From an uncultured Oscillospiraceae bacterium (lineage in GTDB: Bacteria; Bacillota; Clostridia; Oscillospirales; Ruminococcaceae): 35,260 nucleotides of DNA. Positions within the stretch are counted from its first letter, which is position 1, and each line of letters begins with the position of its first letter. The position numbers were made by a program, and so were the translations under genes. Where the stretch lies: the NCBI GenBank assembly GCA_949741215.1, contig CATJLA010000123.1:1-35260 (forward strand). The letters run 5' to 3'. Shown here piece after piece: positions 10,234 to 31,409 of this stretch. A model generated the notes under the pieces. That model was not told the origin of the DNA. It worked only from the letters and a program-made list of their open reading frames with translations, and searched no databases.

Positions 10234-10266
10234 TTTTTTGATAATGTGAAAGGATGGGAAAGAACA

Positions 10267-10887
10267 ATGTCCAAAGAAGTGAGAATTACCTGCCCCGGCT
10301 GCCGTACGGAGGGCACTGCCTTACTGTGGGATACGATTGATGCTACCTTTAACCAGGAGGAAAAGCGGCGTTTGCTGGACGGGCAGCTGTTTTATCATTA
10401 CTGCGCCAGCTGCGGTAAGGCTACTCCTATTGAGTATCCCTGTGTTTATCATGATAGCGCGGCCTCTGCTGTGGTGCTGTTTTTCCCGGAAGGGGATGGC
10501 TCGCATGATGAGATGATCCCCCAGCCCCCGGAGGGAAGTGCGAATTTAAGACGGGTGCGCTCTGCCCTAAGCCTGGCGGAAAAGGTGAGGATTTTGGACG
10601 GCGGCAGGGACGACCGGGTGATTGAGGTGATGAAGCTGCTGTATGTTTCCCGCCTGAAAAAGGAACGGCCGGAGGCTCAGGTACAGAATGTGCTGTACGA
10701 AAAGCAGGACGGCGTTGAGCAGCTGGTTTTTATCCTGAAAGGGGAGGGGAACCTGGTTTCGGATATTCAGCCGGTGTTTTATGAGCGGGTGGCAAAGGAT
10801 TTTGAGGAGCGGATTCAAAAGGCCACGCCGGACGGCTGGGCTGAGATTGACGGGCACTGGGCGCTGGCGGTTTTGAAAAATAGCTGA
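10267..10887 (+). CDS. CpXC-domain protein
   Basis: A 206-residue protein beginning MSKEVRITCPGCRTEGTALLW and continuing with YHYCASCGKATPIEYPCVYHD. The paired CPGC and CASC motifs, about 36 residues apart, form a predicted zinc ribbon typical of the CpXC family, whose role is unknown. The C-terminal half (about 90-206) is mixed alpha/beta with no recognised domain. The start at 10267 places CPGC at residues 9-12, as usual in the family; an upstream GTG at 10246 has no better ribosome site. It is followed by another cysteine-rich protein, suggesting a shared transcript. Confidence 0.75.
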   Translation: MSKEVRITCPGCRTEGTALLWDTIDATFNQEEKRRLLDGQLFYHYCASCGKATPIEYPCVYHDSAASAVVLFFPEGDGSHDEMIPQPPEGSANLRRVRSALSLAEKVRILDGGRDDRVIEVMKLLYVSRLKKERPEAQVQNVLYEKQDGVEQLVFILKGEGNLVSDIQPVFYERVAKDFEERIQKATPDGWAEIDGHWALAVLKNS

Positions 10888-19940: not shown

Positions 19941-22900
19941 ATGGATGTCAATTCTACCAGTTCGTATGTGAATAAGGCAAGCAGCAACAAGGGCTTTTCT
20001 GGCTTGGCTTCCGGTGTGGATACCGAAAGCATGGTGGAGCAGATGCTCTCGGGAACGCAGAGCAAGATTGATAAACAGAATGCCCTGAAACAGCAGATTG
20101 AATGGAAGCAGGAAATTTACCGGGATATTATCAGCCAGATTAATACCTTCCAGAATAAGTTTTTTAGCTATAGCTCGGATACGAATCTGCTGAGTGAGTC
20201 GTACTTTAACGCTATGGTGGCTTCAGCGACCTCCAAGGCCTTTAAGGTGGCGGCTACCAGTTCCGCCGCTGCGGGCATTACCAGCATGGAAGTGCGCCGC
20301 TTGGCCAGCAATACCAGCATTACCTCCGGCGCGGGGGTGAGCGGCAAGCTGGCCGGCACTTTGGACGCCAGTGCTCTTGCAAAGGAAGCGCAGAAGCAGT
20401 TAGGCGAGGAAGGCAGCTATACTGTGAAGTTCCAGGTTGGGAACAAAACGGTGGAGGCTGATCTGCGGGATATTTTTGTGGACGGCAATACTCTGAAGGA
20501 TTATACAGATAAAAGTGCGGAGTTGGATCAGGCGATTCAGGAACGGTTGAGCAGCGCGTTTAAGGACGCAGGCGTAGAGACCGCTTCTGTCACTGTGAAA
20601 AATGGCTCTGTGAGTATTGTTAACAAAGGCGCCGGCGAAAAGGATGCCGCCGAGACAGTGATTGTTTCCGGAGATTCTGGGGATTTGGCACTGAAGCGGC
20701 TGGGACTGAGCGCGGGCGGCAGGTCTACTGCCTCCCGGGATAATAAGAGCAGTACGCTTTCCGGCAAGGTAAATGAAACGCCGGCGATGACCTTCTCTGT
20801 TACTCTGGACGATAACAAGAAGGATGTTCAGCTTGATGTGCGGAAGTTTATGGATGCGGATGGCAATGTAAATATTGAGGACTTTAAGAACGCCTTGCAG
20901 GAAGGCCTGGACGCTGCGCACGGTAAGGGACAGGTTAAGGTGGTAAGCAATGGCGATAGCTTTGAGCTGACTGTTTCCGGCGGCAGAAAGGTGGCGGTTA
21001 GCAGCAGCAATAAGGCGATTTTGGACGCTATGGGGCTGCAGAATAACCAGTCTAACCGGATTAACCGGGCAGGCTCGTTAAAGGATGCTTACTTTGCAAC
21101 GCCGCTTCAGGGCTCCAGGTTTGAGTTTACCATTAATGGAGAGCGGTTCAGCTTTACGGAAAATGATGATATCGGCGATATTATGACTGCTATTAACAGC
21201 AGTGATGCCGGAGTGCGGCTGGTGTACCGGGCGCAATCTGACACCTTTACTTTGGAGGCTACTGAGTCCGGCGCGGGGCGTACCATTAAGATTTCTCAGG
21301 AAGAGGGCAACCTGCTGAACGCGCTGTTTGGGGCAGGTGTCGACAGTGGCTGGGCTTCCGGCAAGAAGGCGGGCTCTACGGCGCTTTCGGGCTTGGTTTC
21401 CGGCAAGACTACGCTGAAGACCCTTGGGCTTACCGGGCTTTTGGGTGAGGACGGAAACAAGCTGGATGAAAATACCACTTTGGATGAGTTAAAAGAGAAA
21501 ACCGGCGGGCTGCTTTTCTACGAAAACGGGACGATTGTTTTCAGCGGGGAAAAGGAAAGCTCTAAGGTGGGAGATTCTGAAATTTTAACGAAGCTGTTTG
21601 GCTCCGATAAGATTAATGGGCGCACGACGTCCGGCAGTTTGAGCATTGAGGTTACCGGGGACACTACTTTAGGCGACCTGGGACTGAAGCTTTATGATAA
21701 GGACGGCAATGAGCTGGCCGATACAACCAAGCTTTCAGAGCTTTCTGACAAGACTGGGGGGGCACTTTCCTTTGAGGATGGCCAGATTGTGGCGGATGCG
21801 GATAAGGGATTTGCTAACAGCATGATACAAGATGCTGATACTGCGAGAAATCTGTTTGGGGTAGAGCAGCTGAGTTTGGGAGAGGTTCCTGCCGGTGGGG
21901 CAAAGGCGGAAATGGTGGCTGGCCAGAACGCCCTGATTAAGGTGGATGGTGTGCTTACCGAGCGCAGCAGCAACGCTTTTGACCTGAACGGGCTGAATAT
22001 TACCCTGAAGGCGCTTACCGGCAGCTATGAGGACGTGAGCGGAGGGCTGTATGCCAATGGGTCTCTTATAACGTTGGAGGCTGGAGATTACGTGCAGAAC
22101 GGTACCCTTTATGGGGCGGACGGCAGCATAAAGCAAACAGGCGTTGTGTATCAGGGCGATGACGGTGTTAGTATAACGGCCGATGACTTTTCGGTTAGTG
22201 CTGATGGAAAGCTGCAGAGATTTAATGGTACAGCGGATGAAATTGATGTTTCGAGAGATACCGACAAGGTTGTGGACGGCATCAAGCAGTTTATTGACGA
22301 GTACAATAAGCTGGTGCAGACGCTGAATACCTATCTGGATGAGGATGCCAGCTACCGGGATTATGCGCCTTTGACCGACGCTCAGAAAAAAGAGATGAGC
22401 GAGCGGGAGATTGAGCTGTGGGAGGAAAAGGCCAAGGAAGGACTTTTGCGCCGGGATACTACTATTGAGACCTTCCTGCGGGAGATGCGTACTGCTATGT
22501 ATGAGAAACCCGCCGGCAACCGGTTTGCACTGTATGATATTGGTATTGAAACCGGTGAATGGCAGACCAAGGGGCAGCTGGTGCTTTCGGCTGACGGCGA
22601 GGCAAAGCTGCGGCAGGCGATAGAAAGCGATTCTGCCAGTGTAATGCGGCTGTTTGCCGACCCTGATGAGGGCTTGGCAGTGAAATTGAACAATATCGTC
22701 AAGGATACTGCAAATACCAGCTCCGGCTCCCCCGGCAGCTTGGTGCAGCTGGCCGGTATTAAGGGGAAGGCCAGCGAGAAGAATAACACACTGTATAATC
22801 AGCTGAAAGCGATTGAGGATAAGATTACCGCCTTGAAAAAGACCTATGAGACGGAAAAACAAAGATATTGGAATCAGTTTAACACGATGGAGCAGATGAT

Positions 22901-22955
22901 TTCCAATATGAATACCCAGAGTTCCTATCTGATGCAGATGATGGGCCTGAGCTAA
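19941..22955 (+). CDS. fliD: Flagellar hook-associated protein 2 FliD (filament cap), large
   Basis: A 1004-residue filament cap protein. The N-terminal segment FSGLASGVDTESMVEQMLSGTQSKIDKQNALKQQIEWKQEIYRDIISQIN is the FliD D0 signature and the C-terminal ETEKQRYWNQFNTMEQMISNMNTQSSYLMQMMGLS the matching closing helices. Between them are several beta-rich domains (for example FSVTLDDNKKDVQLDVRKFMDADG, and two related ENTTLDELKEKTGGLLFYENGTIVFS and DTTKLSELSDKTGGALSFEDGQIVA stretches at about 510-640). Most Firmicutes FliD proteins are roughly 450-700 residues, so about 300-500 residues of domain are extra. GGAGG precedes the ATG; fliS follows 18 bases after the stop. Confidence 0.93.
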   Translation: MDVNSTSSYVNKASSNKGFSGLASGVDTESMVEQMLSGTQSKIDKQNALKQQIEWKQEIYRDIISQINTFQNKFFSYSSDTNLLSESYFNAMVASATSKAFKVAATSSAAAGITSMEVRRLASNTSITSGAGVSGKLAGTLDASALAKEAQKQLGEEGSYTVKFQVGNKTVEADLRDIFVDGNTLKDYTDKSAELDQAIQERLSSAFKDAGVETASVTVKNGSVSIVNKGAGEKDAAETVIVSGDSGDLALKRLGLSAGGRSTASRDNKSSTLSGKVNETPAMTFSVTLDDNKKDVQLDVRKFMDADGNVNIEDFKNALQEGLDAAHGKGQVKVVSNGDSFELTVSGGRKVAVSSSNKAILDAMGLQNNQSNRINRAGSLKDAYFATPLQGSRFEFTINGERFSFTENDDIGDIMTAINSSDAGVRLVYRAQSDTFTLEATESGAGRTIKISQEEGNLLNALFGAGVDSGWASGKKAGSTALSGLVSGKTTLKTLGLTGLLGEDGNKLDENTTLDELKEKTGGLLFYENGTIVFSGEKESSKVGDSEILTKLFGSDKINGRTTSGSLSIEVTGDTTLGDLGLKLYDKDGNELADTTKLSELSDKTGGALSFEDGQIVADADKGFANSMIQDADTARNLFGVEQLSLGEVPAGGAKAEMVAGQNALIKVDGVLTERSSNAFDLNGLNITLKALTGSYEDVSGGLYANGSLITLEAGDYVQNGTLYGADGSIKQTGVVYQGDDGVSITADDFSVSADGKLQRFNGTADEIDVSRDTDKVVDGIKQFIDEYNKLVQTLNTYLDEDASYRDYAPLTDAQKKEMSEREIELWEEKAKEGLLRRDTTIETFLREMRTAMYEKPAGNRFALYDIGIETGEWQTKGQLVLSADGEAKLRQAIESDSASVMRLFADPDEGLAVKLNNIVKDTANTSSGSPGSLVQLAGIKGKASEKNNTLYNQLKAIEDKITALKKTYETEKQRYWNQFNTMEQMISNMNTQSSYLMQMMGLS

Positions 22956-22973: not shown

Positions 22974-23360
22974 ATGACGCCTAATTCCTATCAGAACGCG
23001 TATCAGAAATACCAGCAGCAGTCTGTTAACACGATGACGCCAGGTGAGATGCTGACCAGACTGTATGATGAGGTGATCAAGCAGCTGAGCGCTACCAAAC
23101 AGTTTAATGATGCTAAGGATTATGAATCGGCGAATCAGGCGTCACAAAAGGCACAGCGGATTATCCAGCACTTAAATTCCACCTTGAATTTTCAGTATGA
23201 GATCTCCAATAATCTGAGTTCTTTGTATGATTATTTTATTTACCGGCTGGTGCAGGCGAATCTTCACAAGGATAACCAGATGGTGGATGAAATTCTGGAA
23301 ATGGTGAGCGATTTGAGAGAAACCTTTATTCAGGCGGATAAGGCTGCCAGATGCGGATAG
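22974..23360 (+). CDS. fliS: Flagellar export chaperone FliS
   Basis: A 128-residue helical chaperone with the family opening SYQNAYQKYQQQSVNTMTPGEMLTRLYDEVIKQL and closing helices NNLSSLYDYFIYRLVQANLHKDNQMVDEILEMVSDLRETF. It binds the C-terminal helix of flagellin and keeps it unpolymerised before export. CGAGGTGAAGAA precedes the ATG. It is co-transcribed with fliD. Confidence 0.95.
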   Translation: MTPNSYQNAYQKYQQQSVNTMTPGEMLTRLYDEVIKQLSATKQFNDAKDYESANQASQKAQRIIQHLNSTLNFQYEISNNLSSLYDYFIYRLVQANLHKDNQMVDEILEMVSDLRETFIQADKAARCG

Positions 23361-23408
23361 GCCTACAGACAGATTGATAAAGTGGGTTGGGGGATTCCGG
23401 GAGGAGGT

Positions 23409-23777
23409 ATGATTACGGCGGCAGAACGGAATGGTTTCGGCGTTCAGGAAAAAAACAAAGGGAAGAACGGCAAGGATTCTCCGCTGACGGAAACCAGCTT
23501 TTATATTTTGCTGTCACTCAAGGAAGAGCGGCATGGATATGATATTATTCAGTGGATCAGGGCATTTACCGATGGCGAGGTAGAGCTGCAGGGAGGTACG
23601 GTTTATAACTGCCTGCTGCGGATGGAGCAGGAGGGACTGATACAGATGACCTCCGAGGATAGCCGGCGGAAGTATTACAGGCTAACCCGGCAGGGGGAGC
23701 AGGCGTTGGCGCAGGAACAGCTACGGTTGGATAGGTTGCGCCAAAACAGCCTGGGCGTACCCTGGAAGCGGATATAA
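23409..23777 (+). CDS. PadR-family transcriptional regulator
   Basis: A 122-residue winged-helix protein. SPLTETSFYILLSLKEERHGYDIIQWI is the PadR N-terminal helix pair, GGTVYNCLLRMEQEGLI the recognition region, and RRKYYRLTRQGEQALAQEQ the wing and dimer start. It lacks an extended C-terminal domain, so it is a short PadR (subfamily 2-like). The ATG at 23409 is four bases after the GGGAGG of a GGGAGGAGG run; an upstream GTG at 23382 has no ribosome site. No obvious effector gene adjoins it; it could regulate the surface protein gene that follows, which is inference. Confidence 0.85.
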   Translation: MITAAERNGFGVQEKNKGKNGKDSPLTETSFYILLSLKEERHGYDIIQWIRAFTDGEVELQGGTVYNCLLRMEQEGLIQMTSEDSRRKYYRLTRQGEQALAQEQLRLDRLRQNSLGVPWKRI

Positions 23778-24298: not shown

Positions 24299-27200
24299 AT
24301 GAGATATAAGAGGATGAAATCACTTGTTTTGGCGGCGGCTATGGTGCTTACCATGCTGCCTTATGGCTCTTTGCGGGCGGAGGCGGCGGTGGCGAACCCG
24401 GCGATCAGCTTTACTACCAATATGGTGGGCGGGGACAATACCACAGCTAATGTGATTACCGGGCGGACGATTACCATTAAGGAGAATATTCCTGCCGGGT
24501 ATACTTCCAATAAAATTGTGCTGAGAAGTGCGACCCAGGACATAACGATTGAAAGCCGTGATCCTGATGGATCGGGAGCGACTTCTACTCGGGCAGGCGT
24601 AGATATCAGCCCCATTAACCCGGTGGACGGTACCCGTACCATTACTTTTTTGGATACTTTTAATCCGATTGATGGTACTACAGATGCCGGTAATAAGACA
24701 AAAGCGCTTACCGATGTGTATTCTATCCGCGGTGAGTATAAGTCGGTACGCTCTGAGGGTGAGGCGGTGGAAACCTTTGGCAACCACTCCTCTTTGGGCA
24801 CGGTTACCGCTGTGAATCCTTTGGATATTGTAAAGGAAAGTAAGATTACAGTTGAGTGTGTCCAGCCGGAAAGTGCTGCCGGCGGCGCTATATTTAAGAT
24901 AGCGGATGACGGTGCCGGAACTGGTATTTTTGAGGGATATACCCAGGTGTTTTATGGCGATAATTCTACCAAAAGCGACAATGTTACAGGAAATACCCAG
25001 AAAAATTTGTATTTGAACCTGAGAAGCTCTACAAACTCTTTGCGGATTGACCTTTTGCTGCATCCCACCCAGACAACTGCCAACCCGAAAAAGGACCCTG
25101 ACGACGCAACGGAGCAGGTTACCTACAATAACTATATTCAGGCCGGCACAAAGTTTGAAATTACCTTTAGCGCGCCGGTTTCCAACGCAATTTTGTTGAC
25201 GGTTATGACTCCTCAGTATGCTGTGCAGCAGGTGGAAACCGAAATTAACAAGAGCGATGGTGAAACCGATAAGACCTTTATCAATTTGGCAGACGGCGAC
25301 AGCTTACAGTATATTACTCAGAATTTCCAGCTTCGTCAAAGAAGCGACCTGTATGGCGGAGATTTCCGTATTGAATGGAAGTGGCATCCCAATGTGGAAA
25401 ATGCCACCAACTTAGGGGTAGTTGGCATTGGCGAAGGCGATAACAAGGAGTGGCAGTCCGCCGGTGTGAGCCAGCTGGAGGACAACGTGGAAGGCGAGCT
25501 GCGCGCTTTGGTTACGTATTACGACAGCAATAATAACCCGGTGCCCAATAGTACGGCGGAGGATAGGCGGCCGAAAAAGACGGCGATTGTGCGAGGTACC
25601 GGTAAGCCGGTGGCGGTGCGGGCGTTGAGCGAGAAGACAGGTTTGGCGGTTACCAATGCCAGCGACCCAACCTTTAGGGAAGATGTATATGATACGGCGG
25701 TGAATATTCCGGAGGGGACGACGGGGTATTCCAAAACGATGGACGCTTACCAAGGGGGAATTATTGGGTATACGCCGGTGCCAAGAGGCCCCTATGAATG
25801 GAATTTACAGCTGGATATGGGCGCCAAAAACGGTACCGCCAGCTATGCAACGGTTACTGTGGCAGAAGGCTCGGAGAGCAATATCGTCATGGAAATTGAC
25901 CAGCAGGAGTATAAATCTGGTGCTCAGATCAGCAATCCCCAGGCCACTTCCGGCGACAAGAGCATTGCTACCAAGAAGAATTTGCGGATTGTTGCCCAGC
26001 AGCTGCCTCGTCATGCGGATACGCAGGTAGTGCTGGAGGTGCGGTACTTTATTCCTGATGCAAAGGGGACGCCGGTGGAAAGTACCCGGTATAAGTACCG
26101 GATTATTTTGAATTTGAAGGACAGTACCCCCAGTCAGGACAGCTCGCTGCAGTCTTTGACAATACGGTCTCAGGATAAAGAGGAGATTCCCTTTGCGTTT
26201 TCTCCTGATCAGCTTGTGTATAACCGGGATAACGGCGGAGTGATCCATTTGCCCTATCGGGTGGAATCTATCACCCTTACCCCCACCCTTGGCGACGAAA
26301 GAGGCGCCGCTAATCTGACGAAATCTGGTACAATCGTCCGAAAGGATACGATGGGCGCGGTGCTGGAGACGCTGACCGGGCTGAAAAACGGCCAGCCCAG
26401 CGGGAAGATACCTGCCGGCGGAATACTGGAGGTAGGCGAGCTTTCTACCATTGAGGTGCTGGTGCCTTCACAGGACCCCAGAAAGGAGTTCTGGACTACG
26501 TATAAGCTGGACGTCGTGAGAGACCCGGCCAGTGAGGACAATACGCTTGCTCTCTTGGGAATTTATTATGAGGAGGACTCTGCCCAGCGGAACAATTTGA
26601 TCAACTTTGACCCTAATGTGCTGGAATATAATGTGCAGATACCTTTTTCTACCAAGAGGCTGCGGGTAAAGGCGGAGAAGAACCATGTGGGAGCGAAGGG
26701 CCCTGAGATTACCCCGGAGTTGGTGGGAAGCAGCATCTTTGACCCGGAGAAGCAGTGGCTGAGCGACTTGAAAAATAAGTTCCAGACTATGGCCGACGAG
26801 GACGGGGCGCTGACCGTTACCTTTACGGTGACTTCGGAATCCGGCTTGGCAAACGGAGGCGGTGTGCGGGAATACAAGGTGCATTTGTACCGCCAGGACC
26901 CCAGCAAGGATGCTACCCTGAAAAACCTGCAGGTACTGGATAATGACGAGAAGACAATTACCTACCGGCCCAATTTCCAGGCGAGCACTGACGTTTATAC
27001 GGTGGAGATTCCTTATTCTACCGGAAAGCTGAAGCTGAATATTACCCCTAATGACGTCAATGTTTCCAAAATCGAGGTGCTTCGGCGGGACGGCGAGCTG
27101 CTGTTTGAGGCGATTCCTGACAGGATTACCGGCGCGATTGACGTTTTGCCTATGGATGATGAGATGATTCGGGACCAGTACCAGGGGTATGATCCTATTA

Positions 27201-28906
27201 TCATTCGGGTAACGCCGGAAAGCGAAAATGAGGATGATGTGAAGGAGTATACCATCCGCGTTAGGAGAGAGCCGCCAAGCGATGACGCTGTGCTGAAGTC
27301 GCTGGTATTAAAGGACCAGGACGGCGTGGATATCAAGACCTTTGCGTTCCATCCTGATGAAACCAGTTATAATATTCGGGTACCCTATGAGACGACTGCC
27401 ATCAGCTTTACTCCTACTGCAAACCATCCTGGGGCGACGATTCGGATTCTTCAGCCTGGTGATATTTTAGACGAGATGGTGCCCTATATGGTGCAGAGCG
27501 GTGCAACCTCCAAAAACCTGAAGCTGGCTACCCCCGGTACCCCCAAGGAGTTTCAGGTGATTATGACCGCTGAGGATGGCGAGACCACGATTACCTATTC
27601 CATTACCGTTACCCGGGAGCTGCCCAGCAGTGATTCCCGTTTGAAGAGCCTGAAAATGGGTAACGTAGAGGAGTTTAGCCCGGTATTTGTTTCCAGCAAA
27701 ACGGAGTATACCGGTAAGGTTATGAAGGATCAGTCCACTGTTACCGCCACGCCTACCGCAAACCATCCCGGGGCGACGATTCGGGTGGATGGGAACGTGG
27801 TGGCAAGCGGATCGACTTCAGATCCTATTGACGTCATAGAGATATACCAGAAGGTGGTTATTGAGGTGACGGCGCAGGACGGCATAACCAAAACGACCTA
27901 CGTTGTAAACCTGACCAACGAGAACCTGATTGAAAAAACCAACAATGCTGATTTGAAACGGCTGGACGTAAGCACAGGCCAGATGACTCCGGAATTCCAG
28001 GCGGCAGTTACTGAGTATGAGGTGGCTGTGAAGGAGAATGCTTATTCGATTGATGTGATTCCCAAACCCTCTGACCCGCTGGCGACTATGAAGGTATTCT
28101 CCGGCACAAGGGAAATTGGCGACTATAACGGCAACTATGCCCAAGCGCTGGTGGATGGAGCAAATGAAATCACCATTGAGGTGACTTCTCCTGATGAAAC
28201 GGTGGTTAAGAATTATACGGTGACTATCTACCGCAACGAGGAGGATAAGCTGAAAAACCTGACTCCCTTGGAGGCGGAACAGGTGAATTATGAGGACTCC
28301 AGTGATGTGATTTTAGTGCGGATTGAGGAATACCCCCGGGTAGGCGCCAGCGTATTTAATGAGCTGCGGGAGTATCCGGAAAAGACGATTATTTTCCAGG
28401 GAAATGACTACTCGCTGGAGTTTAAGGCCTCGGATATTGACCGGGTGATTCCGCAGACGGAGATTTATGACTTCCGGATGAGCTTTACCTCCCCGGATGA
28501 AGAGCGGATTTTTGATCTGATTGACTCTAATTCCCGCAACCGGGATTTGGGTAACCGAGTGGTGCTGGCGTACTTTGACTACCATGGCTCGCTGCCTGGG
28601 CCGGCGACCTTCTACCTGAACCTGGGCAACAAGTATGGGGATGAGACCATTTATTGGCACCATTATAACCTGGAGAGGGATCGGATTGACTACTATGGCG
28701 CGCTGCAGAGCAGCAGCAAGGGTGCGGTGGCTATGACTTTGGAGCATTTTTCTACCTATATTTTCACCACCAAGCACCGGATTGCAGGGTCGGAGGATCA
28801 TTCCGGCAGAATTGACGAGTACGGAACAGTGTCAGATGCTTCTGAGATCCTGACTGTAGGGGGCAAGACGCCTCCGTACACAGGTATACGGGAGGGAGAC
28901 GATTGA
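24299..28906 (+). CDS. Large secreted protein with cadherin-like beta-sandwich repeats
   Basis: A 1535-residue exported protein. A signal peptide (RYKRMKSLVLAAAMVLTML, cleavage near AEA at about 30) is followed by a unique region of about 580 residues, then six repeats of the cadherin-like beta-sandwich type starting near residues 615, 746, 871, 996, 1111 and 1217 (pattern LKSL-x-(V/L)-x(4-12)-F-x(6)-Y-x-V-x-(V/I)-P-Y). A C-terminal domain (about 1310-1510) with TFYLNLGNKYGDETIYWHHY and LEHFSTYIF resembles ends of clostridial surface proteins. The tail reads GGKTPPYTGIREGDD, a (S/P)PxTG-like sorting motif at 1525-1529, but without the hydrophobic tail of a sortase substrate. GGAGG precedes the ATG. 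The next gene is a sortase. Confidence 0.82.
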   Translation: MRYKRMKSLVLAAAMVLTMLPYGSLRAEAAVANPAISFTTNMVGGDNTTANVITGRTITIKENIPAGYTSNKIVLRSATQDITIESRDPDGSGATSTRAGVDISPINPVDGTRTITFLDTFNPIDGTTDAGNKTKALTDVYSIRGEYKSVRSEGEAVETFGNHSSLGTVTAVNPLDIVKESKITVECVQPESAAGGAIFKIADDGAGTGIFEGYTQVFYGDNSTKSDNVTGNTQKNLYLNLRSSTNSLRIDLLLHPTQTTANPKKDPDDATEQVTYNNYIQAGTKFEITFSAPVSNAILLTVMTPQYAVQQVETEINKSDGETDKTFINLADGDSLQYITQNFQLRQRSDLYGGDFRIEWKWHPNVENATNLGVVGIGEGDNKEWQSAGVSQLEDNVEGELRALVTYYDSNNNPVPNSTAEDRRPKKTAIVRGTGKPVAVRALSEKTGLAVTNASDPTFREDVYDTAVNIPEGTTGYSKTMDAYQGGIIGYTPVPRGPYEWNLQLDMGAKNGTASYATVTVAEGSESNIVMEIDQQEYKSGAQISNPQATSGDKSIATKKNLRIVAQQLPRHADTQVVLEVRYFIPDAKGTPVESTRYKYRIILNLKDSTPSQDSSLQSLTIRSQDKEEIPFAFSPDQLVYNRDNGGVIHLPYRVESITLTPTLGDERGAANLTKSGTIVRKDTMGAVLETLTGLKNGQPSGKIPAGGILEVGELSTIEVLVPSQDPRKEFWTTYKLDVVRDPASEDNTLALLGIYYEEDSAQRNNLINFDPNVLEYNVQIPFSTKRLRVKAEKNHVGAKGPEITPELVGSSIFDPEKQWLSDLKNKFQTMADEDGALTVTFTVTSESGLANGGGVREYKVHLYRQDPSKDATLKNLQVLDNDEKTITYRPNFQASTDVYTVEIPYSTGKLKLNITPNDVNVSKIEVLRRDGELLFEAIPDRITGAIDVLPMDDEMIRDQYQGYDPIIIRVTPESENEDDVKEYTIRVRREPPSDDAVLKSLVLKDQDGVDIKTFAFHPDETSYNIRVPYETTAISFTPTANHPGATIRILQPGDILDEMVPYMVQSGATSKNLKLATPGTPKEFQVIMTAEDGETTITYSITVTRELPSSDSRLKSLKMGNVEEFSPVFVSSKTEYTGKVMKDQSTVTATPTANHPGATIRVDGNVVASGSTSDPIDVIEIYQKVVIEVTAQDGITKTTYVVNLTNENLIEKTNNADLKRLDVSTGQMTPEFQAAVTEYEVAVKENAYSIDVIPKPSDPLATMKVFSGTREIGDYNGNYAQALVDGANEITIEVTSPDETVVKNYTVTIYRNEEDKLKNLTPLEAEQVNYEDSSDVILVRIEEYPRVGASVFNELREYPEKTIIFQGNDYSLEFKASDIDRVIPQTEIYDFRMSFTSPDEERIFDLIDSNSRNRDLGNRVVLAYFDYHGSLPGPATFYLNLGNKYGDETIYWHHYNLERDRIDYYGALQSSSKGAVAMTLEHFSTYIFTTKHRIAGSEDHSGRIDEYGTVSDASEILTVGGKTPPYTGIREGDD
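27419..27784 (+). repeat. Near-identical DNA repeat within two sandwich domains
   Basis: The 27 bases at 27419-27445 and 27758-27784 differ at one position (encoding ANHPGATIR in both). The surrounding repeats have diverged much more, so this patch may be a gene-conversion trace or a conserved loop. Confidence 0.6.
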
Positions 28907-29715
28907 AGAAATTTCTTTTGATTCTCTCATCTACCTTAGGTGCTTTATTGCTGATAGGAGGAATTGTTTATGTTGCTCTTTTTATGGAGGAGCAGCAGCC
29001 GGTAAGTGTTCCTGTTGAGGAAAGCTCCTCCAGCCAGCAAAGCAGCCCCAAAATCAACACCTATCGGGAGGCGGACAATGAAGCGGATACTCTGGAGCTT
29101 CTGGATTATGCCACCACTCAGAATCAGGATACGGTGGGCTGGATTTATATTCCCGGCACCAAGGTGAACAACAGCGTCCTGCAGGCCCAGGACAACAATG
29201 CCTACCTGCGGCGCAATGAAGCCAATGAGGAGGATATCTTTGGCGCGTACTTTGTGGATTACGAGTGTGCTGTGGGGGATAGGGAGAAGCTTTCCCCCAA
29301 CACCATCGTCTACGGGCACAGTGATTTGAAGGATAACCCCGACGGGCTGCGGTTTTCTCAGCTATTTAAGTTTTTGGACCCTGTTTTTGCCAGAAATACC
29401 CCGGTGATTCAGTTTTCCACTATGGAGGACTATATGGGCTGGGAGGTTTTTGCGGTATGTTATGCGGACGTCAGCTTTCCTTATTTTTACCCAAGCCCTG
29501 AGGGGGGCGTGGAGCAGCTGGCGGCAGAGGCTATGGAGATGTCCCTGTATGATTACGGTGTAGAGGTTGGGCCGGAGGATAAGATTTTGACTCTTTCCAC
29601 CTGCACAGTAAAGTTTGGGGAAAATGACCGGAACCACCGGTTGTTGGTGATGGCAAAGCTTTTGCCGGAGGACGCAGAAGTGCCTAACACGGTAGAAGTT
29701 ACGGTAAAAAGTTAG
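28903..29715 (+). CDS. Class B-type sortase
   Basis: A 270-residue membrane-anchored transpeptidase. An N-terminal membrane segment (residues 4-27), a Ser-rich linker (40-48) and the sortase domain. The catalytic triad is visible: His139 in NTIVYGHS, Cys234 in TLSTCT, and Arg246 in NHRLLVMAKL. The segment between these and the long insert with RFSQLFKFLDPVF fits class B. It would attach a (S/P)PxTG-like protein to peptidoglycan or pili. Start is TTG at 28903, overlapping the TGA of the preceding surface-protein gene (TTGA), with GGAGGG six bases upstream, so the two are translationally coupled and likely partners. Confidence 0.9.
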   Translation: MKKFLLILSSTLGALLLIGGIVYVALFMEEQQPVSVPVEESSSSQQSSPKINTYREADNEADTLELLDYATTQNQDTVGWIYIPGTKVNNSVLQAQDNNAYLRRNEANEEDIFGAYFVDYECAVGDREKLSPNTIVYGHSDLKDNPDGLRFSQLFKFLDPVFARNTPVIQFSTMEDYMGWEVFAVCYADVSFPYFYPSPEGGVEQLAAEAMEMSLYDYGVEVGPEDKILTLSTCTVKFGENDRNHRLLVMAKLLPEDAEVPNTVEVTVKS

Positions 29716-29726
29716 GAGGAGTTCCC

Positions 29727-30074
29727 ATGTTTTTTGATTCCGCCCAGTTTTCGCTAATGAGAAGCAGCCTGAATGGCCTGAATATGCAGCAGCAGGCGAT
29801 TTTGCAGAACCTGGCAAACTTGGATACCCCTGGGTATAACGCAAAGTATGTCAGCTTTGAGAATGTGCTGAAGGATTCTGAGGGCAAGTATGATTTGAAG
29901 GCTTATATTGTAACTGACGATACCACTTCTATCCGGCCGGACGGCAACAATGTGGACTCGGACACTGAGAGCCTGAAGCTGTATCAGAACTATGTGCAGC
30001 AGTTGTATTTGTACCAGAAAATCAGCGGCCAGTTCAGCAACCTGCGGTATGTGATGAATCAGTCCGCCAAGTAA
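29727..30074 (+). CDS. flgB: Flagellar basal-body rod protein FlgB
   Basis: A 115-residue rod protein. The sequence MRSSLNGLNMQQQAILQNLANLDTPGYNAKYVSFENVLKD is the FlgB/FlgC D0 signature (ANxxTPGY), and the C-terminal helix YQNYVQQLYLYQKISGQFSNLRYVMNQSAK is typical. FlgB starts the proximal rod. AGGAGG precedes the ATG. It follows the sortase by 11 bases, so it may be on the same transcript as the surface-protein pair; in most Firmicutes it heads the fla/che operon with flgC and fliE, which is not so here. Confidence 0.93.
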   Translation: MFFDSAQFSLMRSSLNGLNMQQQAILQNLANLDTPGYNAKYVSFENVLKDSEGKYDLKAYIVTDDTTSIRPDGNNVDSDTESLKLYQNYVQQLYLYQKISGQFSNLRYVMNQSAK

Positions 30075-30097
30075 AGTGAGAGAAGGAGGCTATGGCG

Positions 30098-30535
30098 ATG
30101 TCCTTTATTGATTCTATGAATTTAGTTGGCTCAGCTTTAACGGCGGAGCGGTTTAGAATGGATGTGGCTTTGCAGAACCTGTCCAATGTAAATAATACTT
30201 CCAAGGATGAGAACGGAGACCCTTACCGCCGCAAGCAGGTGGTGTTCCAGGAACGGGCGATCAGCTTCAGCAACGTGCTGCGGGACCAGGAGAAAAGAGT
30301 GCAGGGTGGTGGTGTAAGAGTTGTGGACGTGGTGGAAAGCCAGCGGGATTTTTTGCCGGTGTATGACCCAAGCCACCCTGACGCCAATGAGGACGGCTAT
30401 GTAATGATGCCCAATGTGGATGCCACTGAGGAGCGGATTGACCTGATGGCTGCCTCCAACTCCTATGAGGCTAATTTGACGGCACTGAAGCTGGTGCAGT
30501 CTTTGGCATTAAAGGCGCTGGAAATTGGGCAGTAA
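30098..30535 (+). CDS. flgC: Flagellar basal-body rod protein FlgC
   Basis: A 145-residue rod protein. FIDSMNLVGSALTAERFRMDVALQNLSNVNNTSKDENGDPYRRKQVVFQ is the FlgC N-terminal signature, and VMMPNVDATEERIDLMAASNSYEANLTALKLVQSLALKALEIGQ the C-terminal D0 helix. The ATG at 30098 lies eight bases after AAGGAGG; the ATG at 30092 is only two bases away. It follows flgB by 23 bases. No fliE follows. Confidence 0.95.
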   Translation: MSFIDSMNLVGSALTAERFRMDVALQNLSNVNNTSKDENGDPYRRKQVVFQERAISFSNVLRDQEKRVQGGGVRVVDVVESQRDFLPVYDPSHPDANEDGYVMMPNVDATEERIDLMAASNSYEANLTALKLVQSLALKALEIGQ

Positions 30536-30642: not shown

Positions 30643-31107
30643 ATGCAGTATGTCATGAGCGCGGATTACTTCGCCCAGCGCCTCCAGTGCCCGCGGGACA
30701 GCAAGCGGGAAAGCCTGGAAATGGCCCGGCAGTTGATGGAGCTGGCTTTTGCCGCCCGGCAGGACGGGCTTTTGAAAATGGACGAAATGATTAGCGATCA
30801 GGCACGGTACCCCGACCCTTTTCTGCGCAAGGCTGTCAGCCTGGTTGTGGAGTTTTCCAACCTGGATAATGTGCGGGATGTGCTTTACAATTACATCTGT
30901 TCCACCAAGCATATTGCAAACAACCAGTTTCTCAATCAGGTGATGATTACCGAGACCATTCTGGCTATCGGCAGATCAGAAAGCCTGGAATACATCTTTA
31001 ATTACCTGGTGCCCTCCCTGTTCGGGATTGAATATGACACCATGGTGGTGGAGGCCTACCGGGATTTTAAGAAACAACTTCTCAATGAGAGGACCTCCGG
31101 GCTGTAG
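30643..31107 (+). CDS. Soluble MotA-like protein
   Basis: A 154-residue protein without signal or membrane segment. LEMARQLMELAFAARQDGLLKMDEMISDQARYPDPFLRKAVSLVVEFSNLDNVRDVLYNYI strongly resembles the cytoplasmic loop of MotA stators (A/E-x-A-R-x-x-G-L-L-x-(L/M)-(E/D)...D-P-F-L-R-K-(A/G)-x-x-L-V-V), which touches FliG. The four transmembrane helices of MotA are missing, and the last 70 residues (SESLEYIFNYLVPSLFGIEYDTMVVEAYRDFKKQ) do not match MotA. GGAGG precedes the ATG. It lies between flgC and a ComFB-like gene. The MotA relation is inference from short motifs. Confidence 0.65.
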   Translation: MQYVMSADYFAQRLQCPRDSKRESLEMARQLMELAFAARQDGLLKMDEMISDQARYPDPFLRKAVSLVVEFSNLDNVRDVLYNYICSTKHIANNQFLNQVMITETILAIGRSESLEYIFNYLVPSLFGIEYDTMVVEAYRDFKKQLLNERTSGL

Positions 31108-31139: not shown

Positions 31140-31409
31140 ATGGTTAATTACCGGAACGTGATGGAAAATTTGGTGGAAGAGATTTATGACGAGGTGGCTC
31201 CCTCCCTGAAATGCTGTACCTGTGAGACCTGCCGGGGGGATATGATTGCCTATGCCCTGAACCAGCTGCCTCCCAAGTATGTGGTTACCGATAAGGGAGA
31301 GGTTTACTCCAAGATGTATGTTCTGCGCAATCAACACCGCACCGACATTATGGCATCGCTGACAAAGGCGGCTAAGCTGGTGCAGGAGCATCCCAGGCAC
31401 GAAAAGTGA
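31140..31409 (+). CDS. ComFB-like late-competence protein
   Basis: An 89-residue protein matching the ComFB family: NVMENLVEEIYDEVAPSLKCCTCETCRGDMIAYALNQLPPKYVVTDKGEVYSKM. The C-C-x-C-x-x-C cluster and LNxLPPKYV are diagnostic. Family members outside the Bacillus competence operon have been reported as c-di-nucleotide receptors that tune motility. GGAAAGGAAGAGACGC precedes the ATG. It is close behind the MotA-like gene (32 bases), so probably co-transcribed; a strong terminator follows at 31448. Confidence 0.9.
   Translation: MVNYRNVMENLVEEIYDEVAPSLKCCTCETCRGDMIAYALNQLPPKYVVTDKGEVYSKMYVLRNQHRTDIMASLTKAAKLVQEHPRHEK

Follow-up and report, generated by a model that had tools for sequence, protein, structure and literature searches.

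A gene pair in an uncultured Oscillospiraceae bacterium codes for a secreted protein of 1535 residues and a class B sortase, and the C-terminus of the former probably (at a rough probability of 0.7) carries a real, non-canonical and tail-less sorting signal, which would be processed after export by the co-translated, membrane-tethered sortase. Two parts that define the canonical sorting signal are absent from the protein, and we therefore consider it a variant and not an ordinary member of the sortase substrates. The window, that is, the whole stretch of DNA analysed (35,260 nucleotides), is a complete contig (G000:C123) of a 2.33-Mb genome assembly of 192 contigs; all features described below lie on its forward strand.

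The substrate gene (24299..28906) codes for a protein with cadherin-like repeats and a Sec-type signal peptide, MRYKRMKSLVLAAAMVLTMLPYGSLRAEAA (24299..24388), which was recognised from the sequence with the cleavage site placed by eye; by inspection, the orthologues also have an N-terminal signal peptide. The top-scoring of the three cadherin-like beta-sandwich repeats covers residues 1013-1107 (27335..27619; PF12733, E=2.1e-46). A conserved C-terminal domain, listed together with the start of a linker (residues 1306-1518, 28214..28852), is predicted to be folded, with a pLDDT of about 90 in the AlphaFold2 model, and gave no PDB fold match below 0.001. The last 17 residues of the model, including the putative sorting motif K-T-P-P-Y-T-G (residues 1523-1529, 28865..28885), have a pLDDT below 50 and are thus predicted to form a disordered tail. 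The protein ends with K-T-P-P-Y-T-G-I-R-E-G-D-D-stop, residue 1528 being the Thr of PPYTG and the stop lying six residues past its Gly. The ORF and the sequence therefore confirm the presence of PPYTG close to the C-terminus without a membrane tail, as reported in an earlier note on this DNA.

The sortase gene (28903..29715) codes for 270 residues from a TTG start. Its overlap with the substrate gene comprises 4 bp (TTGA, 28903..28906) and reads gaTTGAag, the TGA stop of the substrate lying over the TTG start of the sortase, just as the earlier note had it. The enzyme has an N-terminal hydrophobic helix (residues 2-27, 28906..28983) and the catalytic residues His139 (29317..29319), Cys234 (29602..29604) and Arg246 (29638..29640), all three invariant in 23 orthologues. 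It matched PF04203 (5.4e-10) and TIGR03064, the sortase_srtB equivalog (6.3e-31). The matches of its profile in the PDB were all sortases, nearly all of them named SrtB, with the Listeria and Bacillus SrtB nearest by sequence, and a Foldseek search with the predicted model returned class B sortases at ranks 1 to 19 (best E 7.2e-17). Judged by profile, PDB relatives, predicted fold and catalytic residues, the window sortase is a member of class B; since it scored 107.5 bits against TIGR03064, under the curated cut-off of 153.75, it stands outside that equivalog. In the tree, the sortases of the pair and most sortases encoded next to pyruvate kinase (pyk) formed one supported group (99/94), in which the split between the two types was not firm.

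The membrane helix at the sortase N-terminus, which the earlier note had described, was found in the window and in most pair sortases, but a few pair sortases begin with a lipobox-like sequence instead (L099, L100, L122, L124, L059/L127 and L061/L131; lipobox calls were made by pattern and by eye). Most pyk-linked sortases also have lipobox-like N-termini; such class B enzymes are conserved directly beside pyk in many genera of the family (L035/L064, L036/L065 and L068, and further L227, L240, L242, L243 and L247), and no description of lipoprotein sortases was found in the open-access PMC literature. The pair sortase shares with the SrtB of Staphylococcus aureus, Bacillus anthracis, Listeria monocytogenes (Lmo2181) and Clostridioides difficile the fold (predicted here), the His/Cys/Arg set, the N-terminal anchor (in most pair sortases) and an NPxTG-type motif. 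It differs from them by its score under the TIGR03064 cut-off, by an overlapping partner gene whose product has neither a hydrophobic helix nor a basic tail, and by the lipobox-like starts of its pyk-side relatives.

Comparison of the pair and of the C-termini in related genomes, as proposed in the earlier note, was then carried out over the family. A first search, of 61 genomes, revealed five more genera of the family with the pair. When the C-terminal domain was used as a profile, 25 of 397 sampled family genomes, belonging to 15 genera, gave a strong match, and no strong match beyond the family was obtained among 394 order-level genomes. The scan of named genomes yielded 24 pair loci, including those of Anaerotruncus colihominis DSM 17241 (complete chromosome), Marasmitruncus massiliensis and Acetanaerobacterium elongatum. 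None of about 32 distinct orthologues has a hydrophobic tail, and in all of them except L106 the motif lies at most about 20 residues from the stop; L106 (G531) has a degenerate motif (TDMPTGILK) with its sortase present. Of the two refuting conditions named in the earlier note, orthologues lacking the motif were thus not found apart from L106, and a sequencing or assembly error that would mask a normal tail was rejected, because genomes of isolates show the same structure, the complete chromosome CP102255.1 among them. Separately, the pair sortase of one metagenome assembly (L113, G463:C22) is seemingly split over two frames, which may be an error or a pseudogene.

Alignment of 25 orthologue C-termini showed that the K, P, T and G of K-x-x-P-x-T-G are invariant and that N precedes P in 76% of them. 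Conservation is good over the C-terminal domain (about residues 1306-1495 in the window protein), the linker ahead of the motif is variable, with a top-residue frequency mostly of 0.1-0.5 per column, and the residues after the motif vary freely. Judged from these sequences, the C-terminal motif is under selection, and since its codons differ synonymously between orthologues, this selection acts on the protein. The highest 19-residue mean hydropathy in the last 60 residues of the orthologues was 0.75, and no positively charged C-terminal tail was found, the proteins ending for example with IREGDD, ETEGRP or LMY. The orthologues thus share with the canonical LPXTG-type signal an N-terminal signal peptide and an xPxTG motif near the C-terminus, and differ from it by the lack of a hydrophobic stretch and charged tail in all aligned sequences and by the extended K-x-N-P-x-T-G. 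Paralogues with the same C-terminal domain and no adjoining sortase have mostly ordinary membrane helices and basic ends, and the tail-less state of this domain therefore largely goes with an adjacent sortase.

NPXTG is a class B type of motif, and residues flanking the pentapeptide are read as well, as in Bacillus anthracis, where SrtB recognises NPKTG of IsdC (PMC11987632). IsdC differs from the window protein by the transmembrane helix that follows its motif, and the flanks preferred by SrtB of B. anthracis are Asp at P5 and Asp at P2', whereas a Lys is found here at P6. This invariant Lys, two residues before the N, is by its conservation a candidate for a new enzyme contact. The C. difficile SrtB is also a clostridial class B enzyme, and PPYTG of the window fits its (S/P)PxTG motif; the likeness pointed out in the earlier note did not hold for the family, in which the orthologues mostly have NP, lack the tail and follow the consensus K-x-N-P-x-T-G, PP being a variant specific to the window.

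The tail-less ending is shared by other secreted proteins of the family, many of them with apparently no sequence relationship to that of the window. In G014, a 472-residue protein unlike that of the window ends with GRPNPSTGVRF beside a class B sortase (L067); tail-less ends were also found in G682 (KPNPPTGRI and KENPGTGRF), in G011 (KVNPRTGTLPA) and in the window's own genome (NPGTGAF and NPATGCL), where some of these proteins have no adjoining sortase. Several tail-less proteins adjoin related class B sortases, many of which are apparent lipoproteins beside pyk; in G465, three of them adjoin a pyk-linked SrtB of the lipoprotein type. All tested genomes with tail-less proteins carry this type of sortase. 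A tail-less K-x-NPxTG gene was observed next to a classical xPxTG gene with helix and basic end in G632 (L183) and G682 (L176), and both types of signal therefore occur in one genome. No earlier description of tail-less sortase substrates was found in the open-access PMC literature, the scope of our search.

The motif could also have arisen by chance, or be a signal decaying after loss of its tail, as one of the three options of the earlier note (a chance motif) partly proposed. Chance NPxTG ends do exist: a transposase-like ORF of 154 residues, presumably cytoplasmic, ends with NPFTGSK in G682, which has seven copies of it (L170 and six others), and the degenerate motif of L106 would fit decay. 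This explanation is nevertheless very improbable, in view of the K, P, T and G kept in 25 orthologues and of the same ending on other secreted proteins. In G300, the motif pattern gave 25 overlapping matches including 13 distinct in-frame ends, compared to 0 for the reversed-pattern control. The 13 sites correspond to proteins with signal-peptide-like N-termini ending with K-x-NPxTGR-stop; at least 13 such secreted proteins, of about 350-670 residues and probably paralogous, are spread over this genome (L218-L225). Because they look like paralogues, they do not count as independent evidence, which comes rather from the spread of the ending over genera and unlike proteins. A class-wide pattern search gave background-like counts, with no genome having repeated NPxTGR ends among the matches listed.

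We then considered the relation between the two reading frames. The 4-bp overlap is found in 19 of the 24 loci, and the sortase frame, which overlaps the substrate end in most loci and begins with a helix, might in principle supply the missing hydrophobic segment by programmed frameshift or readthrough, another option raised in the earlier note. The sortase start lies, however, downstream of the substrate by 1 nt (L134), 27 nt (L131), 124 nt (L132) and 307 nt (L133), the two frames are related differently in L134, and the sortase frame of several loci opens only within the last codon or codons of the substrate. Such variation of spacing and frame excludes a conserved frameshift fusion. Readthrough of the stop at 25 loci gained no strongly hydrophobic segment (maximum 1.0), and the several pair sortases with lipobox-like starts resemble cleaved lipoproteins. 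Joining of the substrate to the sortase anchor, or to any hydrophobic segment, is consequently the least probable of the explanations, with hardly any weight left to it, and translational coupling is a simpler reading of the overlap.

Only the second option of the earlier note, a released substrate captured in a novel way, is thus supported. From these data we infer capture, cleavage, transpeptidation, the acceptor, operon transcription and a role in motility or adhesion as follows. The 1535-residue protein would be exported by Sec and would expose an accessible, unstructured end consisting of K-x-(N/P)-P-x-T-G and a few residues, with no helix to retain it in the membrane. The sortase would be tethered outside the membrane by its N-terminal helix, in place of which some relatives have an apparent lipid anchor, and would capture the soluble C-terminus during or just after its exit from the translocon. 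Cleavage would take place between Thr and Gly, the T-G bond being the expected cut site in the tail-less peptide ...GGKLNPDTGETEGRP, and the Thr would be joined to an amine acceptor, most likely peptidoglycan. The overlapping genes would ensure the joint synthesis of enzyme and substrate, and this may compensate for the lack of a tail. Against sorting without a tail stands the behaviour of staphylococci, in which removal of the tail causes sortase substrates to be secreted.

Two other fates of the protein were weighed against this wall attachment. The motif might be a processing signal from which the sortase only hydrolyses the tail, freeing a matured soluble protein; sortases are able to hydrolyse their substrates when no nucleophile is present, and a protein without a tail is not retained in the membrane. 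It would be puzzling, however, if the motif were so strictly conserved just for a disordered end to lose a few residues, and the full transpeptidase catalytic set is kept, including Arg246, which makes hydrolysis alone unlikely. Alternatively, the sortase might polymerise the substrate, or attach it via a Lys to a different protein such as a pilin-like or flagellar partner; in favour of this are the existence of class B pilus sortases (3psq and 4y4q were among the fold matches), the flagellar linkage of the pair and the invariant Lys just ahead of the motif. No pilin gene was recognised in the cluster, and many tail-less proteins of apparently unrelated sequence have a Lys before the motif as well, so that enzyme recognition fits better than a pilin lysine; we regard polymerisation as slightly more doubtful still than hydrolysis. 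Attachment of the tail-less protein to the wall is the reading retained below.

In the window, fliD (19941..22955, 1004 residues) and fliS (22974..23360) precede the pair, which is followed by flgB (29727..30074; TIGR01396) and flgC (30092..30535; TIGR01395). The position between fliS and flgB given in the earlier note was thus found again, with, in addition, an ORF for a PadR-like regulator (23382-23777) that separates fliS from the substrate gene and is absent from the same place in the relatives examined. Nearly all named loci keep the order fliD-fliS-pair-flgB-flgC or have the pair behind flgC and its neighbour (L132, L133 and L136); in Acetanaerobacterium the pair is located elsewhere. 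FlhA was present in all 25 pair-bearing genomes, compared to 128 in the whole sample of 397 (P about 9e-14 per genome and 6e-7 per genus, uncorrected for relatedness). Since flgB begins only 11 bp past the sortase, co-transcription of the pair with flgBC is likely on the basis of gene spacing; scans for flagellar sigma and sigma-70 promoters gave no more matches than chance. Downstream of flgC, we also observed an ORF of 154 residues with weak MotA-like similarity (30643-31107), kept at the same place in many relatives, followed by a ComFB-like ORF (31140-31409). Elsewhere in the window, 10246-10887 gave a weak match, under the cut-off, to TIGR04116 (CXXX-repeat peptide modification system protein; 0.0048).

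As the pair is probably expressed with the rod genes flgBC, it is likely the source of a surface protein that is attached to the wall and specific to flagellated cells, and its close association with flagellar genes points to a hitherto undescribed component of motile cells that is attached to the wall. More tentatively, and with somewhat less than even chances, some Oscillospiraceae may sort soluble exported proteins with a C-terminal K-x-N-P-x-T-G independently of a tail by means of membrane- or lipid-anchored class B sortases, the pair of the flagellar rod operon placing a wall protein confined to flagellated cells, where it might form a collar around the flagellum. Programs for listing sortase substrates normally demand a hydrophobic tail and would therefore overlook such proteins in these gut bacteria, a common group. 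Should the signal work, a membrane tail would be dispensable for sorting provided that the enzyme is suitably placed, and it would become possible to test what holds a substrate for its sortase, an old question; enzymatic ligation would be a further use for tail-less tags. Altogether, the tail-less endings suggest a variant route of wall anchoring in Anaerotruncus-related gut bacteria.
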